Shown piece after piece: positions 627 through 40,664 of a stretch of 64,000 nt of DNA. The DNA is from Fibrobacter sp. UWB16 (GTDB lineage Bacteria > Fibrobacterota > Fibrobacteria > Fibrobacterales > Fibrobacteraceae): assembly GCF_900215325.1 (NCBI RefSeq), contig NZ_OCMS01000004.1, positions 1 to 64,000 on the forward strand, written 5' to 3'. Under the pieces are notes generated by a model. The model was given only the letters and a program-made list of their open reading frames with translations. It was not told the origin of the DNA and searched no databases. How positions within the stretch are numbered: position 1 is the first letter of the stretch; each line of letters begins with the position of its first letter. The position numbers were made by a program, and so were the translations under genes.

Positions 627-1487
<861 letters not shown>

Positions 1488-1497
1488 TTAGGATTTT

Positions 1498-1514
1498 CCT
1501 ATAGAAGCGCTAGG
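1498..1514. promoter_or_regulatory. Candidate LysR-type operator at nifH copy 1
   Basis: Sequence CCTATAGAAGCGCTAGG, an imperfect inverted repeat (CCTA...TAGG) with T-N11-A spacing. It lies just downstream of the nifH -10 element, over the expected start of transcription. Closely related boxes lie at seven other sulfur/nitrogenase-like promoters in the window. Confidence 0.5.
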
Positions 1515-1522
1515 CAAGAACA

Positions 1523-1551
1523 AGTTTAGAATTTGCGTCTACCCTTTTCAA
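1523..1551 (-). promoter_or_regulatory. Sigma-70-type promoter of nifH copy 1
   Basis: On the minus strand TTGAAA (1546-1551), 17-bp spacer, TAAACT (1523-1528). The same arrangement, with TAAAAT, precedes nifH copy 2, and the surrounding bases are conserved although the rest of the intergenic regions differs. No GG-N10-GC sigma-54 element is seen. Confidence 0.6.
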
Positions 1552-1686
1552 TACTTTTTTAGCCCATTTCGTCACAATTATTCTTTTTCGCGCGTCGCTA
1601 TAAAAACTTTTTATAACCCCATTCAGCGGGAATCTATTGCACGCCCAGAAAAAACATTTTTTTTAATTTTCACCCCTTGTTTCATA

Positions 1687-1715
1687 TTGTCTTTCGCTAT
1701 ACCGCTTTTTAAATT
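1687..1715 (+). promoter_or_regulatory. Putative promoter of nifB operon
   Basis: TTGTCT (1687-1692), 17-bp spacer, TAAATT (1710-1715). The nifX promoter region has TTGCAT-17-TAAATT in the same relative place, with conserved flanks (CGCTTTTTAAATT). It would give a leader of roughly 160 nt. Confidence 0.45.
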
Positions 1716-1760
1716 TTTGCCCGTACTTCTTCGACAGGGAAGTAAAAGAATTAATCACAC

Positions 1761-1848
1761 TACAGAACGCTAGGCAAACCGTTCATCATCTTTCACATAA
1801 ACTAAATCGGTATTTACCGCTAGTTTAGCGCAAGGCTTTTATGCCTTG
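1761..1848 (+). promoter_or_regulatory. Conserved structured leader of nifB
   Basis: Begins with TACAGAACGCTAGG (1761-1774), followed by a hairpin at 1802-1828 (CTAAA, CGGTA / TACCG, TTTAG) and a second hairpin CAAGGC/GCCTTG at 1831-1848. The nifX leader (18511-18594) has the same box, a first hairpin with the same outer stem but a changed inner stem (CCGG/CCGG), and a second hairpin in the same place with an unrelated sequence. The preserved pairing suggests an RNA element or a regulator-binding site; it matches no riboswitch class I know. Confidence 0.5.
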
Positions 1849-1883
1849 TGTTTACCACGAATCTTTTGCCTTTGTGAGGTTTT

Positions 1884-2756
1884 ATGGCAATCGATCAAGA
1901 AACAGTTTTTAGAGAGCACCCCTGCTTTGGCGCATGCAAGAATCGTAAAGGGCGTATCCATTTGCCCGTCGCTCCGGGTTGTAACATCGAATGCCGTTTT
2001 TGCGACCGTCGCATCAACGAAGACGCACAAGTTCCAGGAAATACAAGTAAAGTTATCAAACCGGAAGAAGCATGTGGCTATATTCGCAAGGCTCTTGAAT
2101 TCGTACCGGATCTTACTACGGTGGGTATTGCTGGCCCTGGCGACACGCTCGCGACACCTTTTGCACTGGACACTTTCCGCCTCGTCAAAAAGGAATTTCC
2201 AAACCTGATTCGTTGCATGAGCACAAACGGACTTTTGCTGAACGACAAGGCAGACGAAGTCATTGACGTGGGCATCGATACGCTTACGGTCACGGTGAAC
2301 GCTGTTGACCCAGAAATCGAAGCAATGATCAATGCGAGAATTTTCTACCACGGCAAGACCTACACGGGCGTCGAAGCCGCTGAAATCTTGATCCACAACC
2401 AGCTGGAAGGCATTCGCAAGGTTGCAAAAAGCGGGACACTCGTGAAAGTGAATACGGTTCTTTGCCCAGGCATCAACGACAACCATATCGAAGATGTGGC
2501 CGCTACAGTCCGCGAAGCGGGAGCGATTATATACAACATCATTCCGCTGATTCCACAAAACGGATTCAAGGATCTTCCAGCCCCGACTCCGAAGGGACTC
2601 GCAATTGCACAGGAACAGGCCGGCGTATTTATCAATGTTTTCAAGCACTGCGCTCACTGCAGAGCAGATGCTGTTGGCGTTCCCGGCGTCTATGACGTTG
2701 GTTCACAAATCTACATGGATCGCATCCGTGTAAAGGAGACTTTCTCTCATGGCTAA
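1884..2756 (+). CDS. nifB: NifB radical SAM cofactor synthase
   Basis: Makes the [8Fe-9S-C] cluster (NifB-co) by radical SAM carbide insertion, the precursor of nitrogenase-type active-site clusters. 290 residues. HPCFGAC (Cys14, Cys18) and the radical SAM motif CNIECRFC (Cys33, Cys37, Cys40) are present, as are GIAGPGD, NTVLCPGIND and the C-terminal HCAHCRADAVG cluster motif. The C-terminal NifX domain found in many NifB proteins is absent; a separate NifX-like protein is encoded at 18629. It is the first gene of an operon with K1 and D1, overlapping K1 by 8 nt. Its presence means that at least one D/K pair here should carry a carbide-containing cluster rather than a simple Fe-S cluster. Confidence 0.93.
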   Translation: MAIDQETVFREHPCFGACKNRKGRIHLPVAPGCNIECRFCDRRINEDAQVPGNTSKVIKPEEACGYIRKALEFVPDLTTVGIAGPGDTLATPFALDTFRLVKKEFPNLIRCMSTNGLLLNDKADEVIDVGIDTLTVTVNAVDPEIEAMINARIFYHGKTYTGVEAAEILIHNQLEGIRKVAKSGTLVKVNTVLCPGINDNHIEDVAATVREAGAIIYNIIPLIPQNGFKDLPAPTPKGLAIAQEQAGVFINVFKHCAHCRADAVGVPGVYDVGSQIYMDRIRVKETFSHG

Positions 2757-4059
2757 AATATTGGATCAGGCGCGCTACAAATGCGCTTTGGCAGCAATGC
2801 AGACCGTGCAATCCATTCCTGGAGCAATTCCCGTTTTGCATTCCGGTCCGGGATGCGCATCCAAGCTAAACGATAACAACGGCACGAGCGGCAGATTCAG
2901 CCCCAACATTTACCCTTGCACAAGTATCAGCGAAAAAGAAGTCGTGTTTGGCGGTGCAGACAAGTTGCGTTCAACCATCAGCAACGCTCTCAAAATCATC
3001 GATGCCGACCTGTTCGTGGTTCTTTCCGGTTGCACAGGTGAAATCATTGGTGACGACATTCAAGAAGTCGCAGAAGAATTCGAAGATGCCGAAAAGCCTG
3101 TCATCTGGGCAAAGACGCCGGGATTCAAGGGCAACAACTACATCGGTCACGACTGGATTTTAAAGAGCATCTTTGAACAGTATGTGAGAAAGTTCAAGGG
3201 CGAAGCCCCGAAGGAAAAGGGACTCGTCAACTTATTCGCAGGCGTGCCACAGCAGGATCCGTATTGGCTTGGCAACTTGCGTGAACTCGAACGTCTTTTG
3301 CAGTCCATCGGTCTCAAGACGAATACGATTTTCGGTTTTGACCGCGGGCTTGAAAACTTGCAAAAGATTCCGACGGCAGAATACACGATTCTAGTTTCGC
3401 CGTGGGCAGGCCTCGAAAGCGCCCAGTATCTCGAAAAGGAATTCAAAATTCCGCTGTTGCACTACCCGATTTTGCCAATTGGCGCTGCTGAAACGACAAA
3501 GTTCCTCCGCACGGTCGCTGAATTCACGGGCGCTGACAAAGAACTCACGGAGTCCGTTATCCAGCAGAACGAAGCGCAGTTCTTCTACTACCTGGAACGT
3601 TACGCCGATACGATTCTCGAAAGCCGTATCGTGAGCAAGCGCTTTACCGTCGTGAGCGAAGCCCAGTACGTAATTGCCGTGACCAAGTTTCTCGTGAACG
3701 ACATGGGTCTTTTCCCGCAAAAGCTGTTCGTTACGGACGACACGCCGGAAGCATTCCGCGAAGAAGTCTCGCAAGAAACAAACACGCTGAATTACGACAT
3801 CAAAACAAAAGTCGAGTTCACCACGGACGGTTTCGACCTCCAGAATCAAATCCGCAAAATGGACTTTGGCGGCTCCCCGCTCATCATCGGTTCGAACTGG
3901 GAAAAGAAACTCGCCCACGAACTCAAGGGCCATTTCGTGAACATCAGCTATCCGATGATCGAAAAAATCGTCATCAACTCGCATGTGGCAGGTTATTCCG
4001 GCGGCCTTTACTTGTTGGAAGACATCTACTCTGCAGCACTTTCCATGCTGAAAATTTAA
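2749..4059 (+). CDS. Nitrogenase-like K-type subunit, set 1
   Basis: NifK/NifN-family subunit of 436 residues, shorter than classical NifK (about 520). Three cysteines fit the P-cluster positions of NifK: Cys12 (YKCALAAM), Cys36 (HSGPGC) and Cys95 (LSGCTGEIIGDD). NifN scaffold proteins usually lack the full set, so this is not a typical NifN. Start ATG lies in the end of nifB with AAGGAGA nine bases upstream. The order nifB-K-D is unusual (K before D). It pairs with the D-type protein downstream. Substrate is unknown; it could be a second reductase or an unusual maturation scaffold for the 14.4-17.4 kb pair. Confidence 0.85.
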   Translation: MAKILDQARYKCALAAMQTVQSIPGAIPVLHSGPGCASKLNDNNGTSGRFSPNIYPCTSISEKEVVFGGADKLRSTISNALKIIDADLFVVLSGCTGEIIGDDIQEVAEEFEDAEKPVIWAKTPGFKGNNYIGHDWILKSIFEQYVRKFKGEAPKEKGLVNLFAGVPQQDPYWLGNLRELERLLQSIGLKTNTIFGFDRGLENLQKIPTAEYTILVSPWAGLESAQYLEKEFKIPLLHYPILPIGAAETTKFLRTVAEFTGADKELTESVIQQNEAQFFYYLERYADTILESRIVSKRFTVVSEAQYVIAVTKFLVNDMGLFPQKLFVTDDTPEAFREEVSQETNTLNYDIKTKVEFTTDGFDLQNQIRKMDFGGSPLIIGSNWEKKLAHELKGHFVNISYPMIEKIVINSHVAGYSGGLYLLEDIYSAALSMLKI

Positions 4060-4069
4060 GGAGGATCTA

Positions 4070-5539
4070 ATGCCATTTAATTTTAAAAATGCAAACGTCG
4101 GTGTTCGCGAAAACCGTCTTGGATCCATTACTGGATTTTCGGGCGACTTGGAAACGCTCGCACACCGCTCACAGTGCGGTTCTGTCAAGAATCGCGAACG
4201 CTGCTTTAGCCAATCCAGTTCTTGCCTTTCGGGTTGCGCTTTGGACCAGCTCATCAGTATCCGCAATGTGGCTGTCGTCTATCACGCTCCAGCCGGTTGC
4301 GTTGCACTTGCACAAGGTGAAGATGTCAAATTCCGCCAACTCGCCGAACGCATTAACGAAAAGACAAATTCCGTTTACGTCTGCACGGACTTGAACGAAA
4401 ACGATACAGTCTTTGGCGCTATCGAAGCACTCCGCAAGGCAACGCAGTACACGTACGAAAAGTTCCACCCAGAAGCGATTTTCCTCTCGTCTTCTTGCGT
4501 ATCGGGCGTGATTGGCGAAGACGTTGACGGTCTCGCCGACGAACTCGCAGATGAATACGATATTCCAATTATTCCAATCCATTGCGAAGGTTTCAAGAGC
4601 CGCATTTGGGCTAGCGGTTTCGATATTGCAGACCACGCCGTTTTACAGGGAATCGTGAAACCGCCTGAGAAGAAGAACAACAAGATTATCTTCAAGAACT
4701 TCTTTGAAAGCGCACGTCCGCAAATTACGGAACTTTTCAAGGAAATCGGCGCAGAACCGCAATTCGTTTATTGTAACTCCACTGTCGAAGAACTTTCGCA
4801 CTTGAGCGAAGCCCAAGCAATGGTTTGCATTTGCGGTACGCTCGGCACCTACCTCGGCAACGCCCTCGAAGAAACTTACGGTGTACCGTATGTGCGTACG
4901 ATTAACCCGAACGGCATTACCGGTTTTGAAACTTGGTTCCGCGCCATCGGCAAAACGATTGGCAAGGAAGCCGAAGTAGAACGTTACATCGAGCGCCAGC
5001 GCGCCATTTACTTGCCGCAAATCGAAGAAGTCAAGAGGGAACTCAAGGGTCTTCGCGCCGTGATCGGTATGGGCCCGGGCTACACCTACGAAGTTTCGCG
5101 CGTATTGCAGGAACTCGGCATGGAAGTGGTTCACGGTCTTGCTTGGCATTATGACTACAAGTACGATAACGGCCAGATTCCGCCAGCACTCGAACATTTG
5201 CTGAAGACATCGCCAAAGGGGCTCAAGCTCACTGTGGCTGACCAACAAAACTACGAAGTGATGAGCGTATTGAACTATCACAAGCCGGACATTTACTTTA
5301 GCCGTCATCCAGGTTCAACCGTATGGGCCATCAAGCAGGGTTACGCAGCGCTCTTCGTCGCCGATGAATACATGATTTTCGGTTACGAAGGAACACTCAA
5401 CTTTGCCAAGAGCATCCTCGATACCATCAAGAATCGTAGCTTTGAAAAGAGTCTTGCCGCTCGAATCAAGTTACCCTATACCAAGTGGTGGTACGAACAA
5501 GATACAGACAAGTTCTTGAAGCCGGAAGGCGCAAGGTAA
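4070..5539 (+). CDS. Nitrogenase-like D-type subunit, set 1
   Basis: NifD/NifE-family subunit, 489 residues. Candidate P-cluster-type ligands are Cys52 or Cys56, Cys77 (HAPAGC) and Cys143 (SSSCVSGVIGED). Cys255 in CICGTLGTYL aligns with the FeMo-co ligand Cys275 of NifD. The region equivalent to the NifD His442 loop reads DEYMIFGYEG, so a His ligand is not evident, in contrast to the set 2 protein (DEHIPVGYEG). Start has a strong SD (AAGGAGGA) and an 11-bp gap after K1. The family is clear; whether it is a catalytic D or a NifE-like scaffold is not decided by sequence. Confidence 0.85.
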   Translation: MPFNFKNANVGVRENRLGSITGFSGDLETLAHRSQCGSVKNRERCFSQSSSCLSGCALDQLISIRNVAVVYHAPAGCVALAQGEDVKFRQLAERINEKTNSVYVCTDLNENDTVFGAIEALRKATQYTYEKFHPEAIFLSSSCVSGVIGEDVDGLADELADEYDIPIIPIHCEGFKSRIWASGFDIADHAVLQGIVKPPEKKNNKIIFKNFFESARPQITELFKEIGAEPQFVYCNSTVEELSHLSEAQAMVCICGTLGTYLGNALEETYGVPYVRTINPNGITGFETWFRAIGKTIGKEAEVERYIERQRAIYLPQIEEVKRELKGLRAVIGMGPGYTYEVSRVLQELGMEVVHGLAWHYDYKYDNGQIPPALEHLLKTSPKGLKLTVADQQNYEVMSVLNYHKPDIYFSRHPGSTVWAIKQGYAALFVADEYMIFGYEGTLNFAKSILDTIKNRSFEKSLAARIKLPYTKWWYEQDTDKFLKPEGAR

Positions 5540-5558: not shown

Positions 5559-5593
5559 TCTCCTGCGGGAATTTTTTCCGCAGGAGATTTTTT
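5559..5593 (+). terminator. Terminator after nifB-K1-D1
   Basis: Perfect 10-bp stem TCTCCTGCGG / CCGCAGGAGA followed by TTTTTT. Confidence 0.85.
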
Positions 5594-5697
5594 ATGCAAC
5601 CAATTTCAGCTGAGTTTCAAATTCAAAAAACGCAACAACAAAACGGCTATAGAAAATCATTATTGCCGGTTCAAGAAAAATAGTATAAAGAAATCTC

Positions 5698-5726
5698 TTG
5701 CCAAAACGAAAGGCTTTATCTAAATT
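5698..5726 (+). promoter_or_regulatory. Putative promoter of the mccBA leader
   Basis: TTGCCA (5698-5703), 17-bp spacer, TAAATT (5721-5726), about 30 bp upstream of the Cys leader peptide start. Confidence 0.45.
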
Positions 5727-5756
5727 AACCCACAAAAGAAATAGGATATAAAAAAA

Positions 5757-5819
5757 ATGAATTTTCCGTTCAATAGCTTAAATTTCGCTTGTTGTTGTCG
5801 ATGTCGGACGGGCATCTAG
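5757..5819 (+). CDS. Cysteine-rich leader peptide (attenuator)
   Basis: A 20-codon frame starting with ATG and ending TAG. The peptide ends ACCCRCRTGI: three consecutive TGT Cys codons at 5790-5798 and a fourth at 5802-5804. An AGGA about 10 bases upstream can act as SD. It sits directly before an intrinsic terminator (5846-5882) and upstream of mccB, whose product breaks cystathionine to cysteine. Cys is otherwise rare, so four Cys in five codons is a strong signal for ribosome-mediated attenuation controlled by charged tRNA-Cys. Evidence is positional and structural; translation is not demonstrated. Confidence 0.75.
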   Translation: MNFPFNSLNFACCCRCRTGI

Positions 5820-5882
5820 TTTTTAGGCTATTCTTTTAAACAGATTCCCGCTCGGTTTGATGTTCCGTAGCGGGATTTTTTT
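5807..5882 (+). promoter_or_regulatory. Cys attenuator: antiterminator/terminator pair
   Basis: Terminator: TCCCGCT (5846-5852) pairs with AGCGGGA (5869-5875), inner CGG/CCG, followed by seven T. Antiterminator: ACGGGCATC (5808-5816), the last codons of the leader peptide, can pair with GATGTTCCGT (5859-5868) in the terminator loop and 3' arm. A ribosome stalled at the Cys codons leaves 5808-5816 free and favours read-through; a ribosome reaching the stop codon covers it and lets the terminator form. Confidence 0.7.
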
Positions 5883-5908
5883 ATTCAAAACAAATTTTAA
5901 ACCAAAAA

Positions 5909-5924
5909 GGCGCTAGCATATAAT
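5909..5924 (+). promoter_or_regulatory. GCTAG half-box and -10 element before mccB
   Basis: GGCGCTAG followed two bases later by TATAAT (5919-5924), downstream of the attenuator and 24 bp before mccB. It resembles half of the box found at malY and nifH and may give a second, attenuator-independent promoter; no good -35 is seen. Confidence 0.35.
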
Positions 5925-5947
5925 AGCGTCATAGGAGATTATTACCT

Positions 5948-7108
5948 ATGTCAAACTTCAACAATATCGAAACAAAACTCATTCACGGCGGCATTGATGG
6001 CGACAAAACTACAGGAGCTGTAAACGTCCCTATCTACCAGACTTCCACCTACAAGCAGGCAGGCCTTGGTGAAAACACGGGTTGGGAATATTCCCGCACA
6101 GGGAACCCGACGCGCGCGGCATTGGAAGCGCTGATTGCAGAACTTGAAGGAGGAGTCGCAGGCTTTGCATTTGCAAGCGGCATGGCTGCAACAACAACCG
6201 TCCTTTCGCTTTTTAAGCAAGGAGACCGCATCATCATTTCGAGCAATGTCTATGGCGGCACTTTCCGCGTTTTGGACAAAGTTTTCAAGAATCTCGGCAT
6301 CAGTTATTCCATCGAAGACACGACCGATTTAAAATCGCTTGAATCCAAAATAACACCCGATGTGAAAGCGTTCTTTGTCGAAAGCCCTGCAAACCCGCTC
6401 TTGACGGTGACGGACTTGGCAGGCGTTGCCGCAATTGCCAAGAAGCACAACATTTTGACCATTGTCGATAACACATTTATGACGCCTTATTTGCAGCGTC
6501 CGATTGAATTGGGCGCCGACATCGTCGTACATTCTGCGACAAAGTATTTAGGCGGTCACAGCGACTTGGTGGCAGGGCTTGCTGTTGTCAATTCCAAGGA
6601 ACTCGCTGAAAGGCTGGCATTTACGCAGAACGCAACCGGTGCTGTACTCGGACCTTTTGATTCATTCCTCTTAATTCGCGGCATCAAGACGCTTGGCGTC
6701 CGCTTGGATCGCCATACTGAGAATGCCGAAACCATCGCAAAGTATCTCGAAAAGCACGAAGCCGTAAAGCACGTTTATTATCCGGGACTCCCGACAGCAC
6801 AAGGCTACGAAATCAACAAGAAACAGGCCAAGAACGGTGGCGCTATGATTTCGTTCGAACTTCGTGAAAATTACGATATCAAAAAATTCTTCAAAGCTCT
6901 AAAACTCGTTTCTCTTGCTGAAAGCTTGGGCGGCGTCGAAAGCCTCGTATGCCATCCAGCCACAATGACGCATGCATCTATCCCAAAGGAAATTCGCGAA
7001 AAAGTCGGCATCACTGACGGGCTCATTCGCTTATCCGTGGGCATTGAAAAAGTTGATGACATTATATCGGATGTAAACCAAGCCATCAACGCGGCACAAG
7101 CAATCTAA
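5948..7108 (+). CDS. mccB: Cystathionine gamma-lyase (MccB/YrhB type)
   Basis: PLP enzyme of the Cys/Met metabolism family, 386 residues. It splits cystathionine to cysteine (or homocysteine to H2S), the second step of reverse transsulfuration. The pattern LIHGGIDGDKTTGAVNVPIY, EYSRTGNPTR, and Lys199 in HSATKYLGGHSD (Schiff base) closely follow Bacillus MccB. It precedes mccA by 14 bp in the same operon and is placed behind the Cys attenuator, which fits a role in making cysteine. Cystathionine gamma-synthase or O-acetylhomoserine sulfhydrylase activity cannot be excluded in this family. SD AGGAG nine bases before the start. Confidence 0.85.
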   Translation: MSNFNNIETKLIHGGIDGDKTTGAVNVPIYQTSTYKQAGLGENTGWEYSRTGNPTRAALEALIAELEGGVAGFAFASGMAATTTVLSLFKQGDRIIISSNVYGGTFRVLDKVFKNLGISYSIEDTTDLKSLESKITPDVKAFFVESPANPLLTVTDLAGVAAIAKKHNILTIVDNTFMTPYLQRPIELGADIVVHSATKYLGGHSDLVAGLAVVNSKELAERLAFTQNATGAVLGPFDSFLLIRGIKTLGVRLDRHTENAETIAKYLEKHEAVKHVYYPGLPTAQGYEINKKQAKNGGAMISFELRENYDIKKFFKALKLVSLAESLGGVESLVCHPATMTHASIPKEIREKVGITDGLIRLSVGIEKVDDIISDVNQAINAAQAI

Positions 7109-7122
7109 ATGGAGAAATTTAT

Positions 7123-8034
7123 ATGCATTACTACGAATCCATGAAATCCCTGATTGGAAAAACACCGCTCGTAAAGCTTTCGCATGTTGGAGTCCCTGAA
7201 GGCGTAAACTTATTTGTAAAACTTGAATTGTGGAACCCTTCGGGCAGCGTAAAAGACCGCGCCGGCCTTTATATGGTCGAAGACGCGTTCGCCAAAGGGA
7301 CGCTCAAACCTGGCGGAACGATTATCGAAGCAACCGCAGGCAATACCGGACTTGGAATTGCATTTGCAGCATTGAACCGCGGTGTGCGAGTGATTTTTGT
7401 GGTGCCAACAAAATTTTCGCAAGAAAAGCAGACGCTTTTGCGTGCGCTTGGCGCAGAACTCATCAACACCCCGCGTGAAGAAGGCATGCTCGGCGCCGAA
7501 AAGAAAGCAGAAGAACTGCTGAAGCAAATTCCGGATTCCATTTCACTCCGGCAATTCCACAACATGGCAAATCCGCGGGCCCATTATGAAACGACAGGAC
7601 CTGAAATTTACGATGATCTCGATGGCAACGTCGATTATGTTGTTGCAGGCGCAGGAAGCGGCGGTACATTTAGCGGCATTCTCAAGGCACTCAAGGAACG
7701 CAACCCCAAAATCCAAGGTGTGCTCGCTGACCCTGTAGGCTCTACAATGGGCGGTGGCGAACATGGCGACTACAATATCGAAGGAATCGGAAACGATTTT
7801 ATTGCAGACACTATGGACATGTCGCTTGTGGACCGCGTCATCAAAATTAACGATGACGACGCTTTCGGTGGTTCCCGTGAACTCGCGCAAAAAGAGGGAA
7901 TTTTTGCGGGATCTTCTTCGGGCGGCGCTTTCGCAGCAGCCAAGAAACTGATTGCATCGGGCGCTCGCGGGAACATTGTCTTTGTAGCCCCAGACCGTGG
8001 CGATCGTTACTTCAGCAAAGGTTTATACAAATAA
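7123..8034 (+). CDS. mccA: O-acetylserine-dependent cystathionine beta-synthase (MccA type)
   Basis: Fold-type II PLP enzyme of the cysteine synthase family, 303 residues, Lys44 in NPSGSVKDRAG as the PLP lysine, TAGNTGLGIA and GAGSGGTFSG phosphate/substrate loops. It has the MccA-like EGIGNDFIADTMD segment rather than the typical CysK one. MccA condenses homocysteine with O-acetylserine to cystathionine, which MccB then cleaves. In Bacillus mccA-mccB sit with a SAM-dependent methyltransferase gene (yrrT), and here too a methyltransferase gene follows. A simple cysteine synthase is the alternative. Confidence 0.8.
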   Translation: MHYYESMKSLIGKTPLVKLSHVGVPEGVNLFVKLELWNPSGSVKDRAGLYMVEDAFAKGTLKPGGTIIEATAGNTGLGIAFAALNRGVRVIFVVPTKFSQEKQTLLRALGAELINTPREEGMLGAEKKAEELLKQIPDSISLRQFHNMANPRAHYETTGPEIYDDLDGNVDYVVAGAGSGGTFSGILKALKERNPKIQGVLADPVGSTMGGGEHGDYNIEGIGNDFIADTMDMSLVDRVIKINDDDAFGGSRELAQKEGIFAGSSSGGAFAAAKKLIASGARGNIVFVAPDRGDRYFSKGLYK

Positions 8035-8070: not shown

Positions 8071-8940
8071 ATGATTAGCAAAACTGCGCTTTTATGCGCT
8101 CTTGCTCGTGCCGTACATACCCATGATAAAAATGAAAAAATTTTTGAAGACGAATTTGCACAGGATTTTGTGGGTTTGAAGGAATATCGCCACGCACGCA
8201 ATCTTGCAAGGCAGTTCCTTCCTGCAAAAAAGTCGAAGCCCAAAGATTACCCAGCTAAGGATTTTATTGACCAATACCTTCTCCCAATCATTCTTCCACG
8301 AAATCGATTTGCAGAAGACATTGTCGATGCCAAGCAAAAAACAGGAGACGTGCAATACGTTCTCTTGGGTGCGGGCCTAGATTCCTTTGCGCTTAGGAAC
8401 AAAAGTCAAAACGTCGATGTCTTTGAACTGGATCTGTACGAAACACAAGTTTTCAAAATCGAGCGGACGCGAGAACTTTTCACAAAGAGGCGTCCCAAAG
8501 TTCACTTTGTAGAAATCGATTTCAACAAGGATAGCATCATTAGCAGATTGGCAAACGCCGGTTTTAATCCGAAAAAACGCTCCGTCTTTTCGATTCTCGG
8601 CGTGTCCTACTACATTCCTATTGAAATCTTTTTCAAGACGATTGCGGAAATTTCTAAGATAGCAGCACCCAATAGTGCAATAGTATTCGATTACTACGAA
8701 AAAGAGCGGGACAGTGCGGACAGCACAACCAAAATCAGCCGCTTAAAACAAATAACAGCATCGTGCGGCGAGTGTATGGTTGACGGATACGATCCCGTTC
8801 AAGTTGACAATTTGGCCAGGAAATCGGGTATCCAATATTGTCACGACCTTTCTCCCAAAGATATCAACGATGCCTTTTTCAGCACATCAACTGGATTGTC
8901 CGCATTCGAGGGCGTTCATCTGATGTATTGCGGTTTGTAA
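8071..8940 (+). CDS. SAM-dependent methyltransferase, LCM-like
   Basis: About 289 residues. The SAM-binding motif VLLGAGLDSFALR, followed by FELDLYETQ and the acidic HFVEIDFNKD, matches the leucine-carboxyl-methyltransferase/O-methyltransferase group with the GxGLDT/S signature. Small-molecule substrate unknown. Downstream of mccBA, it could generate or consume S-methylated compounds, or link SAM recycling to reverse transsulfuration as YrrT is thought to do in Bacillus; that is inference. The start is uncertain: GTG at 8059 is also possible and neither has a strong SD. Confidence 0.7.
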   Translation: MISKTALLCALARAVHTHDKNEKIFEDEFAQDFVGLKEYRHARNLARQFLPAKKSKPKDYPAKDFIDQYLLPIILPRNRFAEDIVDAKQKTGDVQYVLLGAGLDSFALRNKSQNVDVFELDLYETQVFKIERTRELFTKRRPKVHFVEIDFNKDSIISRLANAGFNPKKRSVFSILGVSYYIPIEIFFKTIAEISKIAAPNSAIVFDYYEKERDSADSTTKISRLKQITASCGECMVDGYDPVQVDNLARKSGIQYCHDLSPKDINDAFFSTSTGLSAFEGVHLMYCGL

Positions 8941-9077
8941 AGCAAATCGTTAACAAGATAACTGACTGTTTTGTTATCGAGAAAGCCGATATTTCGCTAT
9001 TAAAAAAAAGTATTAGAAATAGACTTCACATGATTCTATTTTTACCTGGTCAAAATAAAATCGGGAAAGGTAAAGTC

Positions 9078-10082
9078 ATGTCTGAAGTCAAAATACTTGC
9101 TGCTAGAGATTTTTACAAGATTGATTTACAAAATTCAACTTTGCTTGATGTTCGCGAACCAAGCGAAGTTATTGTTCGACCTATAAATGGCGCAGTTCAA
9201 GTTCCATTCTTTGAACTTTCAAAAAAAGTAGATTCCATTCCCAAAGACAAACCCGTTTATGTGTTCTGTTCGACAGGTGACCGCTCCGAACAAGTTGCAG
9301 AAATTCTTGCCGACAGAGATTACGAAGTCTACAATCTCGAAGGCGGGCTAGAAGCCTTTTCTAAAGTTCACTTCGTTGATGCCAAAGGGGCAAAATGCCC
9401 CGGCCCCATCGTTCAAGTAGACGAGGCCATCAAAAGCGTTTCGCCTGGCGAAGAAGTGCAAATAGAAGCAACCGAAAAGGCTTTTTATTCGGACATACAA
9501 GTTTGGTGCCAACGCACCGGCAACGAGCTAAAATCGCTCACAGAAAGAGACAATATAATTTATGCGACCGTCGTAAAGCGCAACGCCCCCGTCGCCGAAA
9601 AGCGAGAATTTGAACACGGCAAAACATTTGTCGTATTCAGCGGGGATTTAGACAAAGCAATCGCTTCGTTCATTATGGCAAATGGCGCAGCCGCGATGGG
9701 CCGCCCAGTTACAATGTTCTTTACCTTTTGGGGTGTAAGCCTTTTACGCAGACCAGAAAAAGTACGCGTCAAAAAATCGCTTATCGGAAAAATGTTCAGC
9801 TTTATGCTGCCGCGAGGTTCCAAAAAGCTCGGACTTTCACGCATGAACTTTGGCGGTATCGGTGCAAAAATGATTCGCGCCGTGATGAAACAAAACGGAG
9901 TTTCTTCGCTCGAAGAACTGATTGAAAGCGCAAAGCAAAAAGGCGTAAAGTTCGTTGCATGCCAAATGTCGATGGAACTCATGGGAATTACCGCCGAAGA
10001 ATTGATTGACGGCGTGGAACTTGGTGGCGTCGCGACCATGCTCGGCTCTACTGAAAAATCCGACCTAACATACTTTATATAA
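9078..10082 (+). CDS. Rhodanese-TusA-DsrE triple-domain sulfur carrier
   Basis: 334 residues with three sulfur-handling domains in one chain. Rhodanese (about 1-95) has the persulfide cysteine Cys64 in FCSTGDRS. TusA-like (about 98-168) has the CPGP motif at 107-110 and a second Cys144. DsrE/F-like (about 183-334) has Cys295 in ACQMSMEL and a long basic insertion. Such proteins pass sulfane sulfur by persulfide relay, often as part of CoA-disulfide reductase-linked systems. The start was set to ATG 9078 because GGGAAAGG lies upstream; an in-frame extension would overlap the methyltransferase. It converges on the ssu operon. Confidence 0.85.
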   Translation: MSEVKILAARDFYKIDLQNSTLLDVREPSEVIVRPINGAVQVPFFELSKKVDSIPKDKPVYVFCSTGDRSEQVAEILADRDYEVYNLEGGLEAFSKVHFVDAKGAKCPGPIVQVDEAIKSVSPGEEVQIEATEKAFYSDIQVWCQRTGNELKSLTERDNIIYATVVKRNAPVAEKREFEHGKTFVVFSGDLDKAIASFIMANGAAAMGRPVTMFFTFWGVSLLRRPEKVRVKKSLIGKMFSFMLPRGSKKLGLSRMNFGGIGAKMIRAVMKQNGVSSLEELIESAKQKGVKFVACQMSMELMGITAEELIDGVELGGVATMLGSTEKSDLTYFI

Positions 10083-10093
10083 CACTCGTTGAC

Positions 10094-10858
10094 TTAATTC
10101 GCCTTCGTCCAGAATAGCACCTTGCGTTTTACAAATTCAAAAAATTCCATGATCGCAAGGACCACAATGCCAGTCCACAAAATTCCGGCAACCATGTTGG
10201 GGTAATCGGAATAGTCAGCGTAGAATTGCACAAAGTGTCCAAGGCCTGTATTTTCGCCGAAGAGTTCAGCAACGGTGAGCATGATGAACGAAAGTCCCAT
10301 GCCTACGGAAAGCCCGGAAAATATGGACGGAAGGCTTGCGACAAACGCAATTCGCCACAAGTATTCAAACTTGCCAATTCCAATAATGGCGGCATTTCGC
10401 CTGTACTTTTCAGGAATGTCCGCAGCACCCGCGGCGGTATTCAAGTAGATAGGCCAAAAGGCCGCAATGAAAATAATGAAAGTAGAGGACAAGTAAAATG
10501 TCGGCAAAATCGCAATGGCGTAAGGGATGTAAACGTTAGGCGGAATCGGAGCCGCGAATCGTGAAATGGGCTTTAGCATAGTACCCACCCAAGGGACAGA
10601 CCCCGAAACAATTCCGAGAGAGATTCCGACGACGGCAGCCGCGAAATAAGCAGGGACAAGTTTCAAAAGCGACGACCACGCACTGCGCAAAAGCTCCTCG
10701 CGAGAATTGAAAAGCGCCGTCAAAACCGCTTTTGGCGATGGGAACAAGTATTGGCTGCTCCATTCCGGGCCACTACTGATGAACGTCCAGATTCCAATCA
10801 AGAACAGAAGGAATAAAAATCCTGAAAATTTAGATAGATATTTCACAAAAATTCTCAT
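10094..10858 (-). CDS. SsuC/TauC-type ABC permease
   Basis: 254-residue inner-membrane permease of the nitrate/sulfonate/taurine family, with about six hydrophobic segments and the EAA-like loop around AAGAADIPEKYRRNAAIIG. Last gene of the minus-strand operon porin-SBP-ATPase-permease; its ATG overlaps the ATPase stop by 4 nt. Given the surrounding genes the imported solute is likely a sulfonate, sulfate ester or methylthio compound; the sequence alone does not say which. Confidence 0.85.
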   Translation of the reverse strand: MRIFVKYLSKFSGFLFLLFLIGIWTFISSGPEWSSQYLFPSPKAVLTALFNSREELLRSAWSSLLKLVPAYFAAAVVGISLGIVSGSVPWVGTMLKPISRFAAPIPPNVYIPYAIAILPTFYLSSTFIIFIAAFWPIYLNTAAGAADIPEKYRRNAAIIGIGKFEYLWRIAFVASLPSIFSGLSVGMGLSFIMLTVAELFGENTGLGHFVQFYADYSDYPNMVAGILWTGIVVLAIMEFFEFVKRKVLFWTKAN

Positions 10859-11670
10859 ATACTTGCGCCCTCCTGTACGGTATGCCCGAGTTTTTCAAGG
10901 ATGTCCTTGTGGTAAGCTTCTTCAATTTCAACGATTGTCTTTTGGACTTTTTCGTTGCGGAACCATTCGCTACGGCTCTTTTTCACTGGAAAATCCAAAG
11001 GAATATCTGCGATGATACGGCCTGGCGTCGATCCCAAAACGATAATTCGACTTCCGAGATAAACGGCCTCGCGAATGTCGTGCGTCACAAACAAAGTCGT
11101 AATTGCACGGTCTTTAGAGCCTCGGCAAAGCTCCAAAACCAAATCTTGAAGGCTTGCACGATTTACAGGATCAAGCGCACCAAAAGGTTCGTCCAAAAGA
11201 AGGGCATCTGCGCCAACGCTCAACGCTCTTGCAATGGCCCCGCGCTGACGCATACCGCCCGAAAGTTCAAAGGGATATTTATGAAGGCTCCCCGAAAGCC
11301 CTACCAAATTCAAGTATTCTTCTGCCAAATGTTTTGCAAAACTCCCCTTGACCTTTTTCGTCTTTTTAATGGCAAGAGAAACGTTCTGTAGAAGCGTAAG
11401 CCAAGGAAAAAGAGTGTAGTCCTGAAAAACTACGCTCCTTTCTGCGGAAGGCTTTTCAATTTCCTTCCCGTTCCAATAAACATGGCCTTCGCTTGGCTTT
11501 GTAAGGCCGGCGAGAAGATTCAGCAAAGTGGTCTTGCCACTTCCGCTTTCGCCTAATAGACATACAAACTCGCCTGGTTTGATTTTCAAGTTGATGTCTT
11601 TCAGGATGGGTTTGCCATCATAGGAAAAAACGAGATTAGTCGCTTCGAAACCACTTTGTATTTGAGTCAT
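10855..11670 (-). CDS. SsuB/TauB-type ABC ATPase
   Basis: 271 residues. Walker A LLGESGSGKTTLLN, Q-loop VVFQDYTLFPW, signature LSGGMRQRGAIARAL, Walker B ALLLDEPFGALD and H-loop FVTHDIREA are all intact. It drives the organosulfur importer with the permease and binding protein on either side, 9 bp after the binding-protein gene. Confidence 0.88.
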   Translation of the reverse strand: MTQIQSGFEATNLVFSYDGKPILKDINLKIKPGEFVCLLGESGSGKTTLLNLLAGLTKPSEGHVYWNGKEIEKPSAERSVVFQDYTLFPWLTLLQNVSLAIKKTKKVKGSFAKHLAEEYLNLVGLSGSLHKYPFELSGGMRQRGAIARALSVGADALLLDEPFGALDPVNRASLQDLVLELCRGSKDRAITTLFVTHDIREAVYLGSRIIVLGSTPGRIIADIPLDFPVKKSRSEWFRNEKVQKTIVEIEEAYHKDILEKLGHTVQEGASI

Positions 11671-11679
11671 TTTAGTTCC

Positions 11680-12708
11680 TTAATTTCTAGATAGGAAAAT
11701 CTTTTCGGCCTGCGCGTAGAATTCAGATTTGGGCTTTTGCTTGCGAAGTTCTGCAAGAGCGTCACGATAGTAGTTCGTGAGAACGTATTGAGAGACCTTC
11801 TTGTCGGACTTGATGAATTCGGCATCCTTCAAGAAATCCCAAAAGAATTCAACGCCTTTCACGTTCGGGTCGGTATCCTGCGTCACGTAACCGCTGTAGA
11901 AAGCCTTGTTGACGAGAGCCGTATCAAGCTTAATCCACTTTGCGATAATTTCAACGCTCTTCTTGTGATCGTTTGCGACAAGTTCTTCGGCTTCAATCAG
12001 CGACTTGACCAAGCGCTTGTAAATGTCGTCACGGCCTTCAAGTTTGCGGAGCGATGCAATGAGGCGGCAGCAAATATGACCGGGATTGATGTCCTTGCTG
12101 CGAAGCACCACGGAGAGACCCGCTTCTTCGGCACGGAGGTCGTGCGGTCCCCATGTAACGCCGGCATACACACTGCCGTTCTTTACCGCTTCGATAACTG
12201 CAGGCGGATTCTTGAGTTCTACAATAGTAACATCCTTACGCCAGTCAATACCTTCTTTTTTGAGGCCTCCGCGAACAATGGCATCCGCTGTTCCCAAACG
12301 GATTGTAGCGATTTTCTTTCCCTTGAGATCGCTCAGTTTTTTGACGGAGCCTGCATTTTCCTTGCGGGTAATCACAGCCTGGTCGCCACCCATGAGGCCG
12401 CCAATAACGCGAATATCAGCACCCTGCGAAACATGGATAAGCGGAGCGAGTGAGCCAAAAGCACCTGCATCGAGCTTTCCGGCACGAACGGCAGCAATGC
12501 CATCGCCAGAATTCGAGAATTCCACCAATTCTACGTCAAGGCCGTTCTTCTTGAAAATGCCCGCATCTTTTGCGATGAAGAATTTCCCCTGGCCCGTAGA
12601 AGAAAGGTAGCCGATGGAAAGCTTGTCAGCTGCGATTGTGGAAGTCACGCAGGCGAGAACGAACAGGAACGCCGATGCAATTCGAGTGTGTAATTTATTC
12701 TGAGTCAT
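11680..12708 (-). CDS. SsuA/TauA-type periplasmic binding protein
   Basis: About 342 residues with a signal peptide (ends near CVTSTIAADK). Domain pattern LSIGYLSSTGQGKFFIAKDAG, then VRAGKLDAGAFG and VTWGPHDLRAEEAG is the NMT1/SsuA-like binding fold. The start was placed at the second ATG (12708) because GGAG lies 8 bases upstream, and that SD overlaps the ATG at 12723. It captures the substrate delivered through the porin encoded just upstream. Confidence 0.85.
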   Translation of the reverse strand: MTQNKLHTRIASAFLFVLACVTSTIAADKLSIGYLSSTGQGKFFIAKDAGIFKKNGLDVELVEFSNSGDGIAAVRAGKLDAGAFGSLAPLIHVSQGADIRVIGGLMGGDQAVITRKENAGSVKKLSDLKGKKIATIRLGTADAIVRGGLKKEGIDWRKDVTIVELKNPPAVIEAVKNGSVYAGVTWGPHDLRAEEAGLSVVLRSKDINPGHICCRLIASLRKLEGRDDIYKRLVKSLIEAEELVANDHKKSVEIIAKWIKLDTALVNKAFYSGYVTQDTDPNVKGVEFFWDFLKDAEFIKSDKKVSQYVLTNYYRDALAELRKQKPKSEFYAQAEKIFLSRN

Positions 12709-12725
12709 TGTAGAATTCTCCATTG

Positions 12726-19556: not shown

Positions 19557-20543
19557 ATGTCACATATCCACCATTCTATTACAGAACTTATTGGGCATAC
19601 ACCGCTTCTTGAACTTCACAATTTCGAAAAGAACCACAACGCCCAAGGCCATATCTTGGCAAAGCTCGAATATTTCAACGCTACAGGTTCTGTCAAGGAT
19701 CGCGCCGCCCTCAGCATGATTGAAGCTGCCGAACGCGAAGGGAAACTGAAACCGGGTGGAGAAATCGTTGACCTCACGAGTGGTAACACTGGCATTGCTC
19801 TTGCCGCCATCGCAGCCGCAAAAGGGTACAAAGTCACTATTTTCTTTGAATCCGGCGGTTCCAAAGAACGCGTTCAAGTCATCAAGACTTATGGAGCGCA
19901 GCTTTTCGATTACAAAGATATTCCCGAATTGAAAAAAGCTCTTGAAGACGGCTCAATTTGCGACAACATCGTTATCGAGGCCATCACAAAGTACACCAAA
20001 GAACACAACGCATTTTTCATCAACCAATGCGAAAACGAAAACAATCCCCTAGCCCATTACAACACGACAGGCCCTGAAATCTGGGAAGATACCGATGGCA
20101 AAGTAGATTTTGTCGTTTCGATGGCAGGCACAGGCGGAACACTGAACGGGCTTTCAAAATATTTCCGCGAAAAGAATCCGAATGTTAAAATCATCGGTGT
20201 GCAAGCGACTCCGGACTCCCGCTATTTCACGCCAGAAGCCGAAAAGAATGGCGTTATTGACGGTGTCGCACCATTTGCAAACGTCGCAGAACCTCCTACG
20301 TTCTTGACGGATTCCTCAATTTACGATGAATACATCGAAGTTTCTACATTGCAAGCAAAAGCTGTAGCGCACGAACTTGCCGAACACGAAGGGCTTTTCC
20401 TGGGCACATCAAGTGCAGCAGGCGTTTACGCAGCCTCAATTGTCGCAGCGCGTCCTGAAAATAAAGACAAGAACATCATCGTTATTACAGCCGATAACGG
20501 GTTCAAATATCTTTCCACAAAAGTTTATGCTTTGAATAAGTAA
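19557..20543 (+). CDS. cysK: Cysteine synthase (O-acetylserine sulfhydrylase), copy 1
   Basis: 328 residues, PLP lysine Lys47 in ATGSVKDRA, LTSGNTGIAL and SMAGTGGTLNG loops. Makes cysteine from O-acetylserine and sulfide, or S-alkyl products from thiols. It is a close paralogue of the gene at 23927-24913, with the same length. Third gene of nifX-GNAT-cysK. Released sulfide or methanethiol from a nitrogenase-like reductase could be captured at this step (inference). Confidence 0.9.
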   Translation: MSHIHHSITELIGHTPLLELHNFEKNHNAQGHILAKLEYFNATGSVKDRAALSMIEAAEREGKLKPGGEIVDLTSGNTGIALAAIAAAKGYKVTIFFESGGSKERVQVIKTYGAQLFDYKDIPELKKALEDGSICDNIVIEAITKYTKEHNAFFINQCENENNPLAHYNTTGPEIWEDTDGKVDFVVSMAGTGGTLNGLSKYFREKNPNVKIIGVQATPDSRYFTPEAEKNGVIDGVAPFANVAEPPTFLTDSSIYDEYIEVSTLQAKAVAHELAEHEGLFLGTSSAAGVYAASIVAARPENKDKNIIVITADNGFKYLSTKVYALNK

Positions 20544-23926: not shown

Positions 23927-24913
23927 ATGTCCAATATTCACCATTCCATTACCGAGCTCGTCGGTCACACTCCGCTGCTGGAGCTCCACAATTTTGAAAA
24001 GAATCACAATGCCAAGGGCCATATCCTGGCAAAACTCGAATACTTCAACCCGTCCGGCTCCGTGAAGGACCGCGCTGCCCTCAGAATGATTGAAGAAGCC
24101 GAACGCGAAGGCAAGCTCAAGCCGGGTGGAGAAATCGTTGAAATCACAAGCGGTAACACGGGCATCGGCCTTGCCGCTATCGCCGCTGCCAAGGGCTACA
24201 AACTCACCGTTTTCTTTGAACCGGGTGGTTCTGAAGAACGCGTACAAGTGATCAAGACCTATGGAGCAACGCTCCTCGGTTACGACGCCCTTCCGAACGT
24301 AAGCAAACTCCTGAAGGAAGGCTCCTTCTCTGTTGCCGTCTTGCTCTCCGACGTCCGCAAGTATGCCGAAGAACACAATGCATTCTTCATCAACCAGATT
24401 GAAAACGAAAACAACCCGCTCGCCCATTACTACACCACCGGTCCGGAAATCGTTGCCGATACGGATGGCAAGGTAGACTTTATCGTTTCCATGGCAGGCA
24501 CGGGCGGTACGCTCAATGGTCTTTCCAAGTACTTCCGCGAACACAATCCGAACGTGAAAATCGTCGGTGTGCAGGCCACTCCGGATTCCCGCTTCTTCAC
24601 CCCGGAAGCTGAAGAACATGGCGTGATCGATGGTGTTGCCCCGTTCGCAAACGTTCCGGAACCGCCTCCTCTGCTGAACGATTCTTCGATCTATGACGAA
24701 TACATTGAAGTCTCTACGCTCCAGGCTACAGGCGTTGCCCACGAACTTGCCGAACATGAAGGTCTCTTCCTCGGAACTTCTGGCGCAGCAGGCATCTACG
24801 CCGCATCCATCGTTGCCGCCCGCCCGGAAAACGAAGGTAAGAACGTTGTTGTCATTACTGCAGACAACGGCTTCAAATACCTTTCCACCAAAGTGTACGC
24901 ATTGAAGAAGTAA
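23927..24913 (+). CDS. cysK: Cysteine synthase, copy 2
   Basis: 328 residues, same length and motifs as the copy at 19557 (Lys47 in PSGSVKDRA, TSGNTGIGL, SMAGTGGTLNG). Codon use is more GC-rich than in copy 1, which suggests higher expression or a different age. A terminator-like hairpin follows it, ahead of the permease gene. Two or more cysK genes with different partners point to substrate or regulation differences. Confidence 0.9.
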   Translation: MSNIHHSITELVGHTPLLELHNFEKNHNAKGHILAKLEYFNPSGSVKDRAALRMIEEAEREGKLKPGGEIVEITSGNTGIGLAAIAAAKGYKLTVFFEPGGSEERVQVIKTYGATLLGYDALPNVSKLLKEGSFSVAVLLSDVRKYAEEHNAFFINQIENENNPLAHYYTTGPEIVADTDGKVDFIVSMAGTGGTLNGLSKYFREHNPNVKIVGVQATPDSRFFTPEAEEHGVIDGVAPFANVPEPPPLLNDSSIYDEYIEVSTLQATGVAHELAEHEGLFLGTSGAAGIYAASIVAARPENEGKNVVVITADNGFKYLSTKVYALKK

Positions 24914-40410: not shown

Positions 40411-40444
40411 CGTTTAACAACCCGTGGCGCAAAGCGCCCGTTGT
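40411..40444 (-). promoter_or_regulatory. Expression-platform hairpin of B12 riboswitch
   Basis: ACAAC...GGCGC / GCGCC...GTTGT at 40417-40444, immediately before the GTG start; it could sequester the ribosome site when cobalamin is bound. Confidence 0.5.
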
Positions 40445-40605
40445 GCCTTACAGTTCTTCTGACTCGGGGATCACTCTACTTCCAGCCCCTTCACACCCAC
40501 CTTGCGGCAAGCATTGGTTTATGCTGGTTTCGTCCTCCCTTACAGCGGCGAGACCGTTCCCGGCTTTCACGGGATTCTCTTATATCGAATCAGCGGTGAC
40601 ACGAT
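40440..40605 (-). ncRNA. Cobalamin riboswitch
   Basis: Read on the minus strand the region contains, in order, AATCCCGTGAAAGCCGGGAA, GGTCTCGCCGCTGTAAGGG, ACGAAACCAGC, a central stem with AAACCAATGCTTGCCGCAAG, GTGTGAAGGGGCTGGAAGTA, GAGTGATCCCCGAGTCAGAA and GAACTGT. These are the conserved core pieces (GCCACTGTAA-like segment and B12 box GAGTCAGAAGA) of AdoCbl riboswitches. It precedes btuB. Confidence 0.93.
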
Positions 40606-40664
40606 ACAGCGTTTTACCGCATAAGGCATTACCTATGAAAAATATAGTAAACAATTCGGGGCAT

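Follow-up and report, generated by a model that had tools for sequence, protein, structure and literature searches.

The mccB-mccA-methyltransferase operon of Fibrobacter, which serves the methionine-to-cysteine route (reverse transsulfuration), is very probably under ribosome-mediated transcription attenuation with charged tRNA-Cys as the signal. In the window, the 64-kb stretch of DNA that was analysed, the three-gene operon (MccB-type lyase, MccA-type synthase, LCM-family methyltransferase) is preceded on the plus strand by a leader ORF (5757-5819) and a strong intrinsic terminator (5846-5882), and the leader region lies between a nitrogenase-like gene on its 5′ side and the mccB-type gene starting at 5948. 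These elements bear out the original prediction of a 20-codon leader with Cys-Cys-Cys-Arg-Cys followed by a U-tract terminator, and both conservation and folding support ribosome-mediated attenuation by Cys-tRNA at mccBA as the best reading of the region.

The classical trp, his, leu, phe and thr attenuators of enterobacteria combine a leader peptide, mutually exclusive 1:2, 2:3 and 3:4 hairpins and a U-tract terminator. The Fibrobacter element resembles them in layout and differs in the amino acid sensed, in its host phylum and in the genes it precedes. It contains what is expected of a trp-type attenuator, namely a run of Cys codons in a short ORF with a Shine-Dalgarno sequence, a U-tract intrinsic terminator between this ORF and the first structural gene, an exclusive antiterminator that in silico becomes available when a ribosome occupies the control codons and is covered when it has reached the stop codon, a predicted promoter upstream of the leader, and downstream genes that at family level supply the sensed amino acid. 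With ample Cys-tRNA, the ribosome would reach the leader stop codon (5817) and cover the antiterminator strand, so that 5846-5855 would pair with 5865-5875 and transcription would end in the U tract (5876-5882). When Cys-tRNA is scarce, the ribosome would stall at the tandem Cys codons, leaving 5804-5817 free to capture the terminator 5′ arm before the 3′ arm is made, and RNA polymerase would continue into mccB.

The leader ORF encodes MNFPFNSLNFACCCRCRTGI in 20 codons, with a TAG stop at 5817 and the Shine-Dalgarno sequence AGGA at about 5743-5746; its Cys codons start at 5790, 5793, 5796 and 5802. In 20,000 first-order Markov random versions of the intergenic region, no ORF 12-26 codons long combined CCC with four or more Cys, and the combination of CC with three or more Cys occurred in 0.14%. 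Elsewhere in the window, no second Cys leader ORF followed by a terminator was found.

Folding of the leader RNA yielded mutually exclusive structures that depend on the position of the ribosome. The terminator hairpin (5846-5875) has the arms CCCGCTCGG/CCGTAGCGGG and a tail of seven T (U7, 5876-5882). In the antiterminator (5804-5855), 5804-5817 pairs with 5842-5855 and takes in the terminator 5′ arm (5804-5807/5852-5855, 5809-5812/5847-5850, 5814-5817/5842-5845), with 5819-5822/5838-5841 as a further helix. The stall models assumed a ribosome footprint that ends at A-site +12 and a transcript extending as far as the terminator 3′ arm. With the ribosome at the first Cys codon, the window sequence folded best into the antiterminator (-16.4 kcal/mol), and stalls at the second and third gave -15.0 and -14.1 kcal/mol. 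A stall at the fourth Cys codon gave only -4.9 kcal/mol and left the terminator arm free, while at the stop codon upstream pairing was lost and the terminator folded (-17.2). Of the stall region originally proposed (5790-5804), the part that stands as the likely sensor is the tandem at 5790-5798, where a stall leaves the antiterminator strand free; only these codons can act as sensor, because a stall at 5802 would cover that strand. The same behaviour was observed across the 47 distinct leaders: 6-9 of the nine terminator 5′-arm bases were paired upstream with a stall at the first tandem Cys (mean -20.8 kcal/mol), compared with 0-5 of nine once the ribosome had reached the stop codon (mean -3.8 kcal/mol).

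In the full leader without a ribosome, a 1:2 hairpin GATGTC/GGCATC (5800-5805/5811-5816) forms beside the terminator. It could hide the antiterminator strand unless a ribosome is stalled, and termination should then be the default in the absence of translation; this default is not certain, because the antiterminator also folds in the ribosome-free partial transcript. Since the terminator is favoured over the antiterminator at equilibrium (window sequence), the model needs co-transcriptional kinetic capture. The antiterminator helix proposed originally, ACGGGCATC (5808-5816) with GATGTTCCGT (5859-5868, terminator loop and 3′ arm), could form at -11.2 compared with -16.4 kcal/mol for the conserved helix. 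We rejected this pairing because it is weaker and not conserved: close relatives have TATG or TACG in place of its GATG element, which is lacking elsewhere.

The distribution of the element was determined by protein and covariance-model searches and subsequent reading of the DNA upstream of the matches. By our own count, leader and terminator are present at 52 of 53 orthologous mccB loci in Fibrobacter, the exception being a single orthologue (L134 in genome G093); the element is missing at the mccB genes of other genera whose upstream DNA was examined. The covariance model R1 recovered 51 strong copies in 80 genomes of the genus and one copy in another genus of the family (G156), and it missed the divergent copies L022 and L135. 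Weak model matches outside the family (G060, G119) and in other genera (G147, G153, G142, G158) were rejected, being without a credible Cys leader. Across 84,980 species genomes searched, the core pattern was confined to Fibrobacter-derived contigs, barring one contig labelled Clostridiales, whereas the tandem-Cys pattern alone was uninformative genome-wide (53 matches versus 25 for the reversed control). The exceptional contig (L145, LVAV01000030.1), part of a Clostridiales-labelled MAG, carries a Fibrobacter leader and mccBA with a Fibrobacter-like mccB and is probably mis-binned. Against Rfam 15, the leader region gave no match at the gathering score and nothing meaningful at a relaxed threshold, and a plasmid search found no similar DNA. 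The predicted attenuator, Fibrobacter-specific and of known type, is phylogenetically well supported.

Conservation of the leader Cys codons had been named as a test of the original prediction; these codons are kept in all related leaders, and the Cys-Cys tandem occurs in 47/47 distinct ones. The peptides' N-termini are unrelated between lineages (MNFPFNSLNFA, MTQKMMDM, MTTNFANM, MIQVFANM, MFYSKKIQ, MTPFFKTI), the Cys codons alternate between TGT (184) and TGC (24), and the CC tandem lies 15-30 nt 5′ of the antiterminator core. With respect to the conserved RNA strand, which is kept beyond it, the stop codon occupies one of three positions: it lies 5′ of still-conserved sequence in L121 and in leaders of the L015, L092 and L022 types. 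Because the position of the stop varies and the sequence past it is conserved, the tail RCRTGI or RCRAGD is kept as RNA and not as peptide. The fourth Cys codon (UGU, 5802) is better explained by an RNA-sequence constraint than by a sensor function.

These features also bear on whether the nascent peptide itself is the sensor. A Cys-rich peptide might use its thiols to detect a metal such as copper or zinc, or the redox state, and the operon would then answer that signal instead of Cys-tRNA, a reading we regard as very unlikely. A uORF from Bordetella that responds to copper is reportedly Cys-rich. The description of this copper-responsive uORF offers a precedent (PMC9426467), and CCC-R-C does look like a ligand cluster. 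However, the spacing of the Cys residues varies among leaders (CCC, CCWS, CCCCWS, CC-SV-CC), the last Cys is RNA-constrained and falls beyond the stop codon in L121, the position of the CC codons with respect to the antiterminator agrees with A-site stalling, and the downstream genes are cysteine-supply enzymes, all of which argue against sensing by the peptide.

Covariation in homologous leaders, another test named in the original prediction, was clear for one of the two structures. Every copy of the element has a U-tract intrinsic terminator, and its stem pairs covary (0/500 shuffles reached the observed score). In the genus alignment, covariation of the antiterminator was not clearly above shuffles (57/500 reached the observed value), and it is weak because the core is nearly invariant. 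Of the 53 aligned copies, most keep the core pairing itself in either of two registers, and 48/53 form 8-9 of nine pairs. In L092-L094 the register is switched as a set, GAACGAGC with GCTCGTTC, keeping 8/8 pairs, and L022 and L135 carry a re-paired variant, ACGGGCG/CGCCCGT; at the level of sequence comparison, both changes support the predicted antiterminator. In percent paired, the antiterminator far exceeded slid controls (86% compared with 27-55%). In a pairing-energy test the strands paired better than shuffled strands (mean z -2.0), and permuted partners equalled the observed pairing energy in 67/5000 cases.

The terminator is equally relevant to the suggestion that leader translation is coupled to Rho or to mccB translation initiation, with the hairpin serving only for processing or as terminator of the upstream unit. 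While mycobacterial Cys uORFs do act at translation and without terminators (PMC1262725, PMC9031893), the presence of a strong intrinsic terminator with covarying stem pairs in every copy makes such coupling very unlikely for Fibrobacter. The upstream operon also has its own terminator (5559-5587, plus strand, 13-bp stem) behind the nitrogenase-like gene, which insulates the leader region, and mccB starts about 65 nt past the U tract with its own Shine-Dalgarno sequence.

The original prediction would also have been called into question by a transcript starting downstream of the leader; instead, a sigma-70-type promoter, TTGCCA-17-TAAATT, is predicted upstream of it (5698-5726, plus strand), with conserved -35 and -10 boxes in the alignment of relatives, most of which have TTGACA-17-TATATT. 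A promoter scan also gave TTTAAA-17-TATAAT 3′ of the terminator (5896-5924, plus strand, 10/12 matches), but the idea that mccB is transcribed from there, behind a chance ORF and an ordinary intergenic terminator, is hardly tenable given the 52/53 conserved loci, the 0/20,000 simulated sequences and the altered TATAAT in close relatives that keep the upstream promoter. A basal bypass of the attenuator is a possible role for this non-conserved site.

Several further motifs were observed around the leader. The motif AATAGTATA (5679-5687, plus strand) is nearly invariant in 23 aligned relatives and has a single copy in the window; across the upstream regions L001-L023, the near-invariant motif AAAAATAGTATAA lies at this place, 5′ of the -35 box. 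It is probably an activator or regulator site and looks like one for a transcription activator that would add a further layer of control to the attenuator. Where the leader transcript begins (about 5731-5746), and likewise in L002-L021, there is an inverted repeat, CCTAY-N(8-12)-RTAGG, as in TTTCCTATC..GATAGGAAA of L007; it might act as an operator or form a small hairpin. The window's own copy is imperfect; the repeat shows compensatory variation among copies and shares positions with both the expected start and the Shine-Dalgarno sequence of the leader. Between terminator and mccB lies the short palindrome GGCGCTAGCATATAATAGCGTC (5911-5938), in place of which relatives have other GGCGC/GCGCC palindromes.

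The three downstream genes, all on the plus strand, were assigned putatively and at family level. The mccB-type gene (5948-7108) encodes a PLP enzyme of the cystathionine gamma-lyase/synthase family (PF01053; best NCBIfam models PRK06176 and PRK07671, below cut-offs), and the mccA-type gene (7123-8034) a cystathionine beta-synthase/cysteine synthase (PF00291; cysKM TIGR01136 just below cut-off). Judged by their sequences, both families fit cysteine supply. The probable third gene of the operon (8074-8940) encodes an LCM-family SAM-dependent methyltransferase (TIGR00027 above cut-off, PF04072). In two genomes the element stands directly 5′ of the methyltransferase gene and mccBA is lacking: G156 (L091) has the leader and then the methyltransferase alone, and on contig C257 of G089 (L093) the leader comes before the first mccB codons, which are fused to the methyltransferase. 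In several genomes, the methyltransferase is placed behind a sulfonate-type ABC permease gene instead. The odds are about even that the attenuator, confined to Fibrobacteraceae, is also a portable switch that was moved or trimmed to stand before the LCM-family methyltransferase in two lineages, which would place this enzyme in cysteine or sulfur salvage.

Other genes of sulfur metabolism were found nearby. Behind the methyltransferase, the gene at 9057-10082 encodes a sulfur-transfer protein that joins three domains, rhodanese, TusA and DsrE2, in a single chain. A nitrogenase-like cluster at 627-5539 (NifH-like, NifB-like radical SAM and two NifDK/NifE-like subunits) adjoins the sulfur genes, and a sulfonate-type ABC transporter is located near it at 10094-12723; the gene content of the cluster is similar to that of the methylthio-alkane reductase marBHDK, an enzyme that would supply the same sulfur pool. 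At 19557-20543 and 23927-24913, 4.4 kb apart, lie two cysteine-synthase-like genes that closely resemble each other, and a third relative starts in L093. No Cys leader was detected in the upstream regions of the two further cysteine-synthase-like genes of the window, nor in those checked for cysS, two cysE-like genes and two cysK genes. A cobalamin riboswitch (Rfam RF00174, 80 bits) is present on the minus strand at 40432-40641.

Among known systems, the closest relatives are a cysS motif of Rhodobacterales and the polycysteine uORFs of mycobacteria. The uORFC-8-2 motif 5′ of cysS in Rhodobacterales was predicted by comparison only (PMC8632094). Like the Fibrobacter element, it comprises tandem Cys codons in a short uORF, two stems and a U-tract terminator at the end, and ribosome-mediated attenuation by uncharged tRNA-Cys was proposed for it (PMC8632094). 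That motif precedes a cysteinyl-tRNA synthetase gene in alphaproteobacteria and uses mostly UGC, whereas the Fibrobacter element precedes mccBA or the methyltransferase and uses mostly UGU; its position 5′ of mccB, the lack of a related Rfam match and a cysS without such a leader set it apart from uORFC-8-2. Polycysteine uORFs were also predicted in mycobacterial cys operons (PMC1262725), and according to later reports they were tested, respond to cysteine and act by translational attenuation, being leaderless and having no intrinsic terminator (PMC9031893, PMC13236596). The Fibrobacter leader shares with them a Cys-codon run in a short ORF 5′ of cysteine genes and, as proposed here, the response to cysteine, but differs from them in having an intrinsic terminator. 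The clostridial ubiG-mccB-mccA operon is under a Cys-specific T-box (PMC2940859). As proposed for Fibrobacter, it combines a methyltransferase with mccBA and premature termination governed by tRNA-Cys charging; in the T-box the tRNA binds the RNA directly and there is no leader peptide, while in Fibrobacter the ribosome would read the codons, and the leader region has no Rfam T-box match.

Cys-specific trp-type attenuators with a full terminator and antiterminator are rarely described, our literature search giving one predicted case (cysS, Rhodobacterales). In view of this case and the tested mycobacterial translational one, the original statement that cysteine attenuators are far less documented than others was somewhat too generous on novelty. 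The wiring of the attenuator is classical, and the cysteine version appears to be undescribed in the phylum of Fibrobacter; the literature search turned up no description of a Fibrobacter attenuator.

The element is conserved across a major rumen genus and is without a match in Rfam 15. Together with the clostridial T-box, it offers a clean comparison of two RNA sensors that follow one logic at the same kind of operon. It also ties an uncharacterised methyltransferase to cysteine metabolism, and it leads to the prediction that Fibrobacter would open its methionine-to-cysteine route when Cys-tRNA is short.
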